DNA from: Marivivens donghaensis
GTDB taxonomy: Bacteria; Pseudomonadota; Alphaproteobacteria; Rhodobacterales; Rhodobacteraceae
Assembly: GCF_023541015.1 (NCBI RefSeq)
Contig: NZ_JALNPR010000003.1
Location: forward strand, 1 to 64,000
Direction: 5' to 3'
DNA: 64,000 nucleotides
The translations under genes were made by a program, and so were the position numbers. The notes beneath the pieces are model-generated. The model made no database searches and was not told the DNA's origin. It worked only from the letters and a program-made list of their open reading frames with translations. Positions 10,500 to 13,768 of this stretch are shown here, piece after piece; position 1 is the first letter of the stretch, and each line of letters starts with the position of its first letter.

Positions 10500-11012
10500 A
10501 TGACCTCTGTTACCCTTGACGATATGCTCGCTGTAGCGACGCCCCAAGATGTGTTGGAGAAAGTAGAGTTAACCAATTCGCCCGTCCTCGACCAATTGGC
10601 GCGGAGCTGTGCTAAAGTCACAAAACGCCCGCATGTTAACATCTTTCTCTACTCCGCAGACGAAGTGTACACGATCGGCAGCTACAACCCTGTCTGCATG
10701 CGGATGAAACGTACGCTTTACGGGCCGATCCTTCAAAAACCGATCATAGAACTTTCTGATTTCGTTCTGCAAAGCACTCATTCGGATCCAAAAACGATTT
10801 CCGAGATGAAATCGTTCACTATGGCGACCATCAACGTCGCTGGTGAGACGGTTGGCGGTATCAGCGTCCACGATTATCAGGACTGCGCCACCCTCACAGA
10901 GTCGCAGAAGGACTTCCTTGTTCAAGCCGCCCAGCTTGCTGCCAACGTGGTCGAAACCAAAGCCAGATTAAAGACTACGCTGATGAATGCCTTTAGTCTC
11001 TCAAACTTCTAA
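10500..11012 (+). CDS. Stand-alone GAF-domain-like protein, pair A first gene
   Basis: A 170-residue soluble protein made of one GAF-like domain, with no output domain. GAF-like features are the opening helix (LDQLARSCAKVTKRPHVNIF), the VYTIGSYNP strand, the GGISVHDYQ strand and the closing helix after LTESQKDFL. GAF domains bind small ligands or chromophores or form dimers, and usually control an attached effector. It is clearly similar to the protein at 13241-13768 (GSYN/GGYN, VGGISVH/IGGIAVH, LTESQ/LTENQ, and KARL/RARL ends). The next gene starts 12 bases on. The ligand is unknown. Confidence 0.75.
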   Translation: MTSVTLDDMLAVATPQDVLEKVELTNSPVLDQLARSCAKVTKRPHVNIFLYSADEVYTIGSYNPVCMRMKRTLYGPILQKPIIELSDFVLQSTHSDPKTISEMKSFTMATINVAGETVGGISVHDYQDCATLTESQKDFLVQAAQLAANVVETKARLKTTLMNAFSLSNF

Positions 11013-11024
11013 GACTGGGCCGAT

Positions 11025-11537
11025 ATGGACATCCTCGAACTCCTCAGCAAGGCCGATAGCGAAGACGAGCTGATTAAAGTCGGGATCAGTCCGGGCGAAC
11101 ACTTTAACAACATTGCTGCTATGTTTGCCTATGCGACGGGCGCAAATATGTCGGCGATCTGGCTTGTCCTCAAAGGAGAGCAGATTCTTATTGGATCACA
11201 TAACACACCGTCACCTCTCCCAGAGCCGCATTTCCTGCACCGCGATCTCGGCGGGAAGGTCTTTTATGAAGCGATCTCTGAAGAAAGGGCTGCAGTGATT
11301 AATTACCCGCTGATCAACGGCGAATTGGCCAGCATGCGCAGCGGATATTACCTCGACATCACCTACAAAAAACAAAAGGTGGGCTATGTCGCGATGGCCT
11401 TCGAAACCCGCGTCGGAGAGCCGTCGCCCGAAATGGTCGACACCCTATTCTCTCTGCGCGACCTGACGATCTCTGTCCTGCGAGGACGCGCAAATGCCCG
11501 CAAGATCCTCGGTGAAATGCAAGCTGTGGTGCGATAA
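11025..11537 (+). CDS. Stand-alone GAF-domain-like protein, pair A second gene
   Basis: A 170-residue soluble GAF-like protein with no effector domain. Visible features are a strand MSAIWLVLKGEQILIGSHN, a YPLINGE turn, a VGYVAMAFETR strand and a C-terminal helix. It is most like the protein at 12727-13239 ([42 protein letters not shown]). It probably shares a transcript with the gene before it. Its stop lies 3 bases from the stop of the convergent tgt gene. Function is unknown; heterodimer formation with its neighbour is a guess. Confidence 0.75.
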   Translation: MDILELLSKADSEDELIKVGISPGEHFNNIAAMFAYATGANMSAIWLVLKGEQILIGSHNTPSPLPEPHFLHRDLGGKVFYEAISEERAAVINYPLINGELASMRSGYYLDITYKKQKVGYVAMAFETRVGEPSPEMVDTLFSLRDLTISVLRGRANARKILGEMQAVVR

Positions 11538-11540
11538 GCC

Positions 11541-12668
11541 CTAAACGGGTTCAATATCGCCCTCAGCACGCTGCGCATGGAACGCGGCTTCCCAGGCGGC
11601 AAAGCGACCCTCGGCAATCGCGTCGCGCATACCCTCCATGATCTCTTGGTAGTAATGTAAATTGTGCCACGTCAGCAGCATCCCCGAAATCATCTCGCCC
11701 GCGCGGAACACATGGTGCAGATAAGCGCGGCTGTAGTTTCGGCACGCAGGGCACGTGCAATGTTCATCGAGCGGGCGCGGATCGTCCTGATGGCGGGCGT
11801 TTTTGATATTCACTTGACCACGACGGGTCCAAGCCTGCCCCGTGCGCCCCGACCGAGACGGCAGAACGCAGTCCATCATATCGATCCCGCGTTTAACCGC
11901 GCCCACGATGTCGTCAGGTTTACCAACGCCCATGAGGTAACGCGGCTTGTCGGTCGGCAGGTAATCAGGCGCATAGTCCAGAACGCCGAACATGGCCTCC
12001 TGCCCCTCACCCACGGCAAGTCCGCCCACGGCATAACCATCAAAGCCGATATCGACCAAGGCCTTGGCAGATTCCTCGCGCAGATGCGGCGTCACCCCGC
12101 CCTGCATAATCCCAAACAGAGCATGCCCTGGACGGTCGCCAAAGGCATCGCGGCTCCGCTGGGCCCACCGCATCGAAAGGCGCATCGATTCAGCGACACG
12201 CTGATCATCGGCAGGCAGCGCAGGACATTCGTCAAAACACATCACAATGTCAGAGCCGAGGAGTTTTTGGATTTCCATCGACCGCTCTGGCGTCAGGAAA
12301 TGTTTCGACCCGTCAACGTGGCTGCGGAAGGTTACGCCCTCTTCGGTCAGCTTCCGAAGATCCGCGAGAGACATCACCTGAAACCCGCCGCTATCGGTCA
12401 GGATCGGTTTGTCCCAGTTCATAAACTTGTGCAGCCCGCCCAAACGATCAATCCGCTCGGCCGTCGGTCGCAGCATCAAATGGTAGGTATTGCCCAGAAG
12501 GATATCCGCACCCGTCGCCGCGACGCTTTCGGGCATCATCGCCTTTACCGTGGCCGCCGTACCAACGGGCATAAATGCAGGTGTGCGAATATCACCGCGC
12601 GGCGTATGGATCACACCTGTGCGGGCCTTGCCATCAGTTGCGTTCAGGTCGAATGAAAAACGGGTCAT
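11541..12668 (-). CDS. tgt: tRNA-guanine transglycosylase
   Basis: A 375-residue bacterial TGT. It exchanges G34 for preQ1 in GUN-anticodon tRNAs during queuosine synthesis. The catalytic region has LTDSGGFQV (Asp general base) and [10 protein letters not shown] (Asp nucleophile). The zinc site [16 protein letters not shown] is near residues 302-317. Length and motifs are complete. It would act on the tRNA-Asn (GTT) genes at the start of this window. It lies between two pairs of GAF-like genes and runs in the same direction as the upstream pair, with a 58-base gap, so it may share their transcript. Confidence 0.97.
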
Positions 12669-12726
12669 ATCTCTCTCCGGTCGGACCGTGTGCTGATACG
12701 CCGTTCCGAGCCAGATGAAAAGATGA

Positions 12727-13239
12727 TCAGGCGCTGTAGGCCGCGGTTAGATCGTTCAGCATTGCCTTGATATTCGAATGTTCCACCAAACTGGACATTA
12801 CGATCTCGGCCCAGAGTGACGCAATCTCTGCGGCCTCGTCGGCGACCTCTTCGGCTGGCCGCTCAAACCCGATGGTGATTTGACCAACCACCACGGCCAT
12901 ATCGACCAATGGGATTGCCATGACAGACCGACAGTTTCCCGCAACGCCATTGATCATTGGATGATCTGGGTGAGCATTTGGGTCCAAGTCCAAAAGGAAT
13001 ATCTTCTCTGCATTGGTCAGGCGGGTTTGATCGAGCATCACAACATCGCTCGGAACCTTATGCCCACCTATCATCATGTCCTCGTTATCGGGCAGATACA
13101 GCCAAATCGCGCCGTGATCGCCATCGACCGAAAGGGTCGCAATCCTAGCGGCACGATCATAGCTCTCGGTCCGTTGGATCCCCAATTCGGCCAATTTCGC
13201 CCGAGTGCTCTCTGCTGTAATGATACGGGTTCTCGGCAT
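12727..13239 (-). CDS. Stand-alone GAF-domain-like protein, pair B second gene
   Basis: A 170-residue soluble GAF-like protein without an effector domain. It is the counterpart of the protein at 11025-11537: both have AIWL, a (L/M)IG(S/G)H strand, a P(L/M)ING turn and a VGxxxxxFE strand. Its ATG lies one base after the stop of the preceding gene, so translation is probably coupled. The tgt gene follows 58 bases downstream on the same strand. Ligand and role are unknown. Confidence 0.75.
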
Positions 13240-13240
13240 G

Positions 13241-13768
13241 TCACGCTCCGTATGAGACAGGTTCGGAATGCAATTGATAGGCGATGAATTTCAACCGTGC
13301 CCGACGGATGACCAGTTCTTGTGCCGTCTGCGCAAGGTCTTTCAAAACGGTCCGCTGATTTTCCGTCAACGGGTCAAGGACACGCGGCGAATGCACCGCT
13401 ATGCCCCCAATCGATTGGCCCTGATACGTCATCTCACACAACGCCAACGCACGAACATCAGGCGCCAATGCACTGAAGTTGTTCCCCAATTTTAACTGAC
13501 AAATCGCATCTTCGTATTCCGCGAAACCATCTTTGAAATCGTAGTCGGGAACGGTGCGACGAACTTGACTGCGTTTGAGGTTGTAGCCACCGATAACGAC
13601 GACTTCGTTTTCCCAACATAAATACACGCTCGCCGCCGCACGATGCGAAGACATCCCAGCAAAACGAGCGATATCGTCAAAATCACCAAAGCGTTGCATC
13701 TGGAGCTGACGAAGAGCCCCAGCAATTCCATGTCGCGACACAAACCCGTCGAAAGACCATGCAAACAT
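13241..13768 (-). CDS. Stand-alone GAF-domain-like protein, pair B first gene
   Basis: A 175-residue soluble GAF-like protein, counterpart of the protein at 10500-11012. Shared features are a VIGGYN strand, an RRT turn, IGGIAVHS and a final helix after LTENQRTVL ending in RARLKF. Cysteines are present (in YLCWENE, AICQL and ALCEM) but their positions do not match those of its paralog, so a conserved free-methionine sulfoxide reductase type active site is unlikely. A GAGGG ribosome site precedes the ATG. It is probably the first gene of a unit that includes the next GAF gene and perhaps tgt. Confidence 0.75.
   Translation of the reverse strand: MFAWSFDGFVSRHGIAGALRQLQMQRFGDFDDIARFAGMSSHRAAASVYLCWENEVVVIGGYNLKRSQVRRTVPDYDFKDGFAEYEDAICQLKLGNNFSALAPDVRALALCEMTYQGQSIGGIAVHSPRVLDPLTENQRTVLKDLAQTAQELVIRRARLKFIAYQLHSEPVSYGA

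Follow-up and report, generated by a model that had tools for sequence, protein, structure and literature searches.

Paired stand-alone GAF-type genes around tgt in Marivivens donghaensis: a candidate two-protein sensor or adaptor found at three genomic sites

Why do two pairs of small genes without an output domain face each other across tgt, the housekeeping gene for tRNA guanosine(34) transglycosylase, in Marivivens donghaensis (Rhodobacteraceae, Rhodobacterales)? The locus lies in a 64,000-nucleotide stretch of DNA (RefSeq assembly GCF_023541015.1, contig NZ_JALNPR010000003.1, positions 1 to 64,000), hereafter the window, in which an earlier note had described four stand-alone GAF-like proteins of 170, 170, 170 and 175 residues and read them as an inverted duplication of a two-gene cassette around tgt. 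The coordinates, strands and lengths proved correct, as did the mirrored order, with pair A on the plus strand and pair B on the minus strand, both running toward tgt. We refer to the outer gene of each pair as position 1 (A1, B1) and to the inner gene as position 2 (A2, B2). Comparison across the genus placed the pair at three different sites, with tgt probably a bystander. Our tentative best explanation is a GAF heterodimer, made from co-expressed genes, that would act in trans on a separate protein as a sensor or adaptor.

Relatedness of the four proteins and their GAF assignment

The outer genes resemble each other and so do the inner ones, as had been claimed: in global alignments (300 shuffles each), A1-B1 reached a z-score of 21.4 and A2-B2 of 19.1, the other pairings giving 8.8 (A1-A2), 5.8 (B1-B2), 5.7 (A2-B1) and 1.0 (A1-B2). 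BLASTP E-values were 1e-14 for A1-B1 and 3e-8 or 4e-10, depending on direction, for A2-B2, and all the motif pairs quoted in support of the likeness can be read in the translations. Any duplication must be old, since no DNA-level match between different genes of the four was better than E 0.44. Within the genus, identity is mostly near 17-37% outside two near-identical species pairs, versus 92-99% for tgt.

Profiles and structure models place the four proteins in the GAF superfamily, below the Pfam cut-offs; the description "GAF-like" therefore stands as remote homology (from profiles and, for A1 and B2, also from the predicted fold) and fails by Pfam and NCBIfam cut-offs. Among the superfamily families considered (Pfam PF01590, PF13185 and PF13492), GAF was matched below its cut-off of 22.4 bits by A1 (15.6 bits, E 0.025) and B2 (13.5 bits, E 0.097-0.11) and was not matched by A2 or B1, and an NCBIfam scan of the four proteins returned no family over its cut-off. 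No other domain passed its cut-off in any of the four in Pfam or NCBIfam, in agreement with the absence of an output domain reported before. When 17 members of the protein family were scanned at E <= 0.01, three matched GAF, three GAF_2 and one GAF_3 (of these, the one member with a stated cut-off, the first, scored below it). The whole window genome holds only one Pfam GAF domain at E <= 0.01, within a 756-aa frame.

More sensitive comparisons were made with hhalign, using seven sequences for each positional class and, as reference, four GAF sequences, of which two are single-domain and two belong to longer proteins that look by eye like kinases. The position-1 class matched the reference at E 3e-13 and the position-2 class at E 9e-10 (probabilities 98.0% and 96.5%), and the two classes matched each other at E 4e-25. 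Against the PDB, a 14-member profile matched part of GAF-type chains (best 3oov, E 4.5e-4, 53 profile positions). AlphaFold models were built for the monomers of A1 and B2; that of B2 had a mean predicted local distance difference test score (pLDDT) of 79.5 and a predicted template modelling score of 0.79. Foldseek returned 80 matches for A1 and 197 for B2 at E <= 0.001, including the GAF domains 4fof, 5w10, 3ci6 and 3cit. Both models finish in a helix of ~35 residues; a terminal helix is a common dimerisation element in GAF proteins.

Two other identities were tried and rejected. Bilin-binding GAF domains, as in phytochromes and cyanobacteriochromes, have a conserved chromophore cysteine (some bacteriophytochromes use a cysteine outside the GAF domain), and neither class has a conserved cysteine. 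For a defence or phage gene, PADLOC gave no match at E <= 1 and PHROGs none better than E 0.048.

Placement and descent of the cassette

Seven Marivivens genomes were compared: the window genome (G000), M. geojensis FJ12 (G200), G201, G202, G117, G198 and G199. The pair was found in all seven, always as two adjacent same-strand genes. Whole-genome profile searches covered G000, G117 and G199; for the remaining genomes the queries were the single proteins A1, B2 and Tgt, so that further diverged copies there may be missed; A1 alone found six of the genomes, B2 five, and the two jointly all seven. Three sites were occupied. Site T, the interval between a SUF-associated gene and tgt, holds a pair in tgt direction in five genomes (G000, G200, G201, G202, G117) and is empty, at 160 bp, in G198 and G199. 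Site C lies on the downstream side of tgt and is the place of pair A, which converges on tgt; no genome but G000 and G200 has it filled. Site D, between genes for a CitE-family lyase and a D-amino-acid transaminase, is occupied in G117, G198 and G199 and empty (151-285 bp) in the remaining four. Because three sites occur, pairs A and B are best seen as two of several placements of the cassette, with tgt no constant companion. The paired, duplicated two-gene cassette proposed earlier was thus upheld and the duplication event about tgt was not; a survey of synteny around tgt, which had been suggested as a check, yielded the pair upstream of tgt in five of the seven genomes and at the unrelated transaminase/lyase locus in three. 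A cassette that settles at different intergenic sites can thus produce, as a side effect, a mirror image about a housekeeping gene.

The flanking DNA, compared by eye, is consistent with this. A promoter-like sequence of tgt, TTTTC(A/T)-17 nt-TATCAG, lies below the pair in G000, G200, G201 and G202 and aligns with the empty sites of G198 (TTTTCA-17 nt-TATGAG) and G199 (TATTAG); the match in G117 is poorer. Since tgt has retained its own promoter-like sequence, it looks like a bystander, and probably is one as far as sequence can tell. Upstream of the SUF-associated gene the word CATATAGG occurs in all seven genomes, and CTTGACG is found upstream of the transaminase gene in all seven, at occupied and empty sites. 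The pair thus seems to sit between two divergent promoters and probably has a promoter of its own; more generally, the cassette probably occupies intergenic DNA as its own small transcription unit. No 9-mer (one mismatch, last 160 nt) was shared by more than three of the seven cassette upstream regions, the best of 20 mononucleotide shuffles giving 2 to 4. TTAACC, a CtrA-type half-site, occurred in three of the ten regions upstream of cassettes (G000 A, G000 B, G200 B) and was dropped.

A maximum-likelihood tree was built from 19 of the 20 Marivivens genes, leaving out an interrupted gene of G199. A2, B2 and the site-T position-2 genes of G200, G201 and G202 cluster together (SH-like approximate likelihood ratio test, SH-aLRT, 98.8; ultrafast bootstrap 97), B1 groups with position 1 of G201 (99.9/100) and A1 with position 1 of G202 (89/83). 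The approximately unbiased (AU) test kept grouping by position (p 0.645) and rejected both grouping by pair, A1 with A2 (p 0.0206), and cross grouping (p 0.0211), for which the Shimodaira-Hasegawa (SH) test gave 0.126 in both cases; of these, the former test accordingly keeps only the predicted A1-B1 and A2-B2 grouping, and the latter rejects neither alternative. The exclusive sisterhood of A and B that a duplication private to the window lineage would give was rejected by AU at position 1 (p 0.0136; SH 0.119 does not reject) and narrowly at position 2 (p 0.0491; SH 0.322 and the Kishino-Hasegawa test, 0.073, do not). AU allows a full position-1/position-2 split (0.532) and a split by lineage (0.24). 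A seven-protein species tree of the seven genomes was unresolved around G117, G202 and G198/G199. By the AU results, though not significantly by SH, A and B seem to have parted before the window lineage arose, and the simplest account would be an old two-gene cassette duplicated as a unit, one copy of which came, in the window lineage, to lie beyond tgt by movement or by loss elsewhere.

In wider searches, a 17-row profile matched 47 of the 394 family genomes at E <= 1e-4 (56 rows), 59 of 292 in a search of the order at 1e-3 (71 rows, all from the window's own family) and 43 of 385 in a search of the class at 1e-6 (51 rows), and with a 14-row profile 32 of the 394 genomes in the family set had a match at 1e-3. 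These genome sets overlap: the two family sets are the same, and some genomes of the order search recur there. As the 17-row searches scored no more than 9 or 12 candidates in each genome, they may have passed over diverged pairs, and restriction to Marivivens is not proved. Most rows (42/56, 56/71 and 39/51 for family, order and class) fell in frames of more than 250 aa and represent GAF domains inside larger proteins. Among the matches scored, adjacent stand-alone genes were present only in Marivivens and in G356, from another genus of the family, where three of the GAF genes are 41-46% identical mutually. G356 has four such genes in all (L071 6527-8858, minus strand; 159-172 aa), adjoining mandelate-racemase-like and FAD-oxidoreductase-like genes (named by eye). 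Thirteen further genomes had a match in an unbroken frame of 172-249 aa (G374, G194, G521, G508, G560, G655, G641, G771, G954, G794, G953, G622 and G714); the seven inspected (G374, G194, G521, G508, G655, G641, G771) showed a single GAF-type open reading frame (ORF) per locus, five of these loci being only 2.7-3.4 kb long. The match frame of G501 has one TGA inside. A B2 scan of the named genome collection recovered one relative only, M. geojensis. Among 72,556 plasmid records, none matched A1, the one protein of the four used as query there, by tblastn at E <= 0.1.

A possible paired sensor or adaptor and its rivals

The four genes are under purifying selection. Relative to M. geojensis, the ratio of non-synonymous to synonymous substitution rates (dN/dS) was 0.065 for A1, 0.088 for A2, 0.115 for B2 and 0.073 for B1, with 9 to 19 non-synonymous differences per gene, compared with 0.004 for tgt and 0.014 for lon; they are thus constrained yet far faster-changing than these neighbours. 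At the transaminase site, dN/dS of the position-2 gene was 0.056.

What would such proteins do? In the mechanism we prefer, the cassette, position 1 closely followed by position 2, encodes two distinct, related single-domain GAF proteins and is inherited, duplicated and moved as one unit within Marivivens. Both proteins would be produced together in similar amounts, would pair as a heterodimer through the GAF dimer helices (the helix that ends the A1 and B2 models being a candidate), and would bind a small ligand or report on one; the signal would then pass by binding to a separate protein, much as NreA does with NreB, and two cassettes in one genome would amount to two receptors of diverged specificity. 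A co-produced heteromer is suggested by the two classes being kept together, by a position-1 to position-2 spacing of -4 to +12 nt (first-start calls; the window, M. geojensis, G201, G202, G117-D and G198-D) and by correlated tree distances. If the proteins signal at all they must act on another protein, because they are without an output domain. GAF domains normally lie within larger signalling proteins, which would make an output-less pair a small, tractable case of output located elsewhere; were the heterodimer real, the evolution of partner specificity could be studied in the diverged pairs that one genome carries. We regard this mechanism as plausible and the best available, somewhat short of likely. 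A stricter version, an obligate heterodimeric two-gene receptor carried by a fast-evolving cassette that duplicates and relocates as a unit, and whose signal goes to something other than a HisKA_2 kinase, is possible and rather doubtful; if true, it would define a sensor class with its halves in separate genes and its output wholly in trans.

Tgt is an improbable partner. So, judging by sequence, is a HisKA_2 kinase in the window genome and M. geojensis, although by ancestry it would be the most natural candidate: at E <= 0.001 no HisKA_2 match was found in these two genomes, each with two pairs (HWE_HK, GGDEF and other outputs were not searched for), and the other genomes had one (G117), two (G202), four (G201), six (G198) and six (G199). 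Given this absence, the partner is probably of another kind, unless the proteins serve as scaffolds or sense independently.

Known systems resemble the cassette in part. NreA, the stand-alone GAF nitrate receptor of staphylococci, is described as acting on a separate kinase, NreB (PMC8139620). Like NreA, the Marivivens proteins are single GAF domains without output (ORFs of 170-175 aa), and an NreA structure, 6izj, stands at rank 47 among the B2 fold matches; NreA, however, is a lone GAF protein that works with the kinase NreB and the regulator NreC, whereas the cassette encodes two different ones, and no kinase or regulator gene was recognised among the directly adjacent genes, the only ones searched. 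The comparison set of alphaproteobacterial sensor-kinase GAF domains (with an HRVKN segment after the GAF domain, HisKA_2-like by eye) and unpaired single-domain GAF proteins belongs to the same superfamily, has in common with the Marivivens proteins a G-x-x-[IV]-G turn and, in several members, a segment like N-P-L-V-x-G, and differs in that the Marivivens proteins lack the kinase part and the STPRE...C segment (shown by two of the four) and are paired. The tandem genes of G356 are likewise adjacent stand-alone GAF genes, three of them matching the position-1 class (hhalign E 2e-11), but they are four rather than two, the fourth is distant, and a position-1/position-2 pattern is not evident. 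A single-domain GAF protein is thus a known kind, and the paired, relocating cassette is a variant for which no description was recognised in the literature searched, though one may still exist in print.

Several observations weigh against a paired receptor. The dimer, ligand and partner are inferred, the models being of monomers; the A1 model is weak (mean pLDDT 63.6), and Foldseek TM-scores for A1 and B2 are moderate, mostly 0.45-0.67 by query length. The 14-row alignment has one invariant glycine column, with the D29 and G119 columns nearly so, and no standout pocket signature. The selection tests rest on two close comparisons only (G000/G200 and G198/G199). Position-1 and position-2 tree distances are correlated over the seven pairs (r 0.62; 4 of 5040 permutations as high), with both sets taken from one joint tree and in part reflecting shared descent. 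The SH test rejects no alternative topology (lowest p 0.119), several inner nodes are weak (SH-aLRT 28.8-69.3, from ~170 very diverged residues), and in G202 position 1 groups with A1 and position 2 with B2, so that cassette members may have been exchanged. One cassette gene could also act alone. In G199 the position-1 gene at site D carries one in-frame TAA (L027 ~8058-8574, plus strand), and with that gene interrupted the full pair is perhaps dispensable there. The rest of the G199 position-1 frame and its position-2 gene look intact; recent decay, recoding or an assembly error are candidate explanations of the TAA.

Among other explanations, the proteins might be ligand-free adaptors or dimerisation proteins, in which the GAF fold serves as a scaffold for fast-changing contacts, for example in competition or a phage-driven arms race. 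The low identity within the genus beside the conservation of tgt, and the single invariant column among 14 sequences, would fit this; the dN/dS values well under 1 between close species speak against it, as do the PADLOC and PHROGs results above and the failure of A1, the one query used, to match the plasmid collection. We consider it unlikely. Just as unlikely, or slightly more so, is that the pair are homodimeric sensors lying side by side after an old tandem duplication, each with its own partner: GAF domains commonly homodimerise, and G356 has its four genes in a row, three of them 41-46% identical, yet in Marivivens the two classes hold their positions and the two genes stay together at three sites.

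A local inverted duplication at tgt, in which pair B would have been copied in reverse to the far side of the gene and both copies would serve tgt or queuosine, appears very improbable. The mirrored order in the window and M. geojensis, the pair just upstream of tgt in five of the seven genomes and the failure of SH to reject A/B sisterhood (0.119, 0.322) would agree with it; against it stand the empty tgt site of G198 and G199, which carry the pair elsewhere, the AU rejections of that sisterhood (p 0.0136, 0.0491), the promoter-like sequence kept by tgt, and copies without DNA identity to each other. An enzyme of the free methionine-(R)-sulfoxide reductase type, which is a single-domain GAF protein of similar size and appears among the matches (the Thermoplasma enzyme in Foldseek with B2, 4mmn and 4mn7, and in profile searches, Ta0848), can practically be dismissed, as that reaction requires conserved catalytic cysteines and the Marivivens proteins have none, any cysteine column being shared by at most two of seven sequences per class and three of the 14 sequences being cysteine-free.

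Layout of the locus and neighbouring genes

Table 1. Features of the tgt region of the window, with the evidence for each.
Feature	Coordinates	Strand	Evidence
Pair A upstream region, 190 bp, blocks conserved with M. geojensis	10310..10499	+	
A1, position-1 stand-alone GAF-type protein, pair A	10500..11012	+	Intact ORF, 170 aa
A2, position-2 stand-alone GAF-type protein, pair A	11025..11537	+	Intact ORF, 170 aa
tgt, tRNA guanosine(34) transglycosylase	11541..12668	-	NCBIfam TIGR00430, 493.6 bits vs cut-off 306.75
B2-tgt gap, 58 nt, with promoter-like TTTTCA-17 nt-TATCAG	12669..12726	-	By-eye comparison
B2, position-2 stand-alone GAF-type protein, pair B	12727..13239	-	Intact ORF, 170 aa
B1, position-1 stand-alone GAF-type protein, pair B	13241..13768	-	Intact ORF, 175 aa
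Divergent intergenic region between B1 and SUF-associated gene, 179 bp, with word CATATAGG	13769..13947	.	Sequence comparison, 7 genomes
SUF-associated gene	13948-14337		TIGR02945, 143.9 bits vs cut-off 143.4

In the window (Table 1), 12 nt separate the end of A1 from the start of A2, which ends 3 nt from the stop of the convergent tgt, and a single nucleotide lies between the B1 stop and the B2 start. Neighbours named by NCBIfam at the sites were lon, tgt, the SUF-associated and A-type Fe-S genes, the D-amino-acid transaminase and the CitE-family lyase, the best NCBIfam matches of the last being below cut-off.

Upstream of pair A, at window positions 9509-10309 (plus strand), lies a gene for a 266-aa protein with N-terminal hydrophobic stretches (by eye), for which no Pfam family passed its cut-off and NCBIfam gave no match at 1e-10. 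Its synonymous divergence (dS 0.999) was the highest of twelve gene comparisons. No relative was found between tgt and lon in G201, G198 or G199 (ORFs of at least 90 aa), and relatives lie in that interval in G117 (26% identity) and G202 (41%). Near the start of the window (446-645, 5311-5552 and 6242-6317) are tRNA genes, namely two adjacent tRNA-Asn(gtt), one tRNA-Met(cat) and two tRNA-Val(tac).

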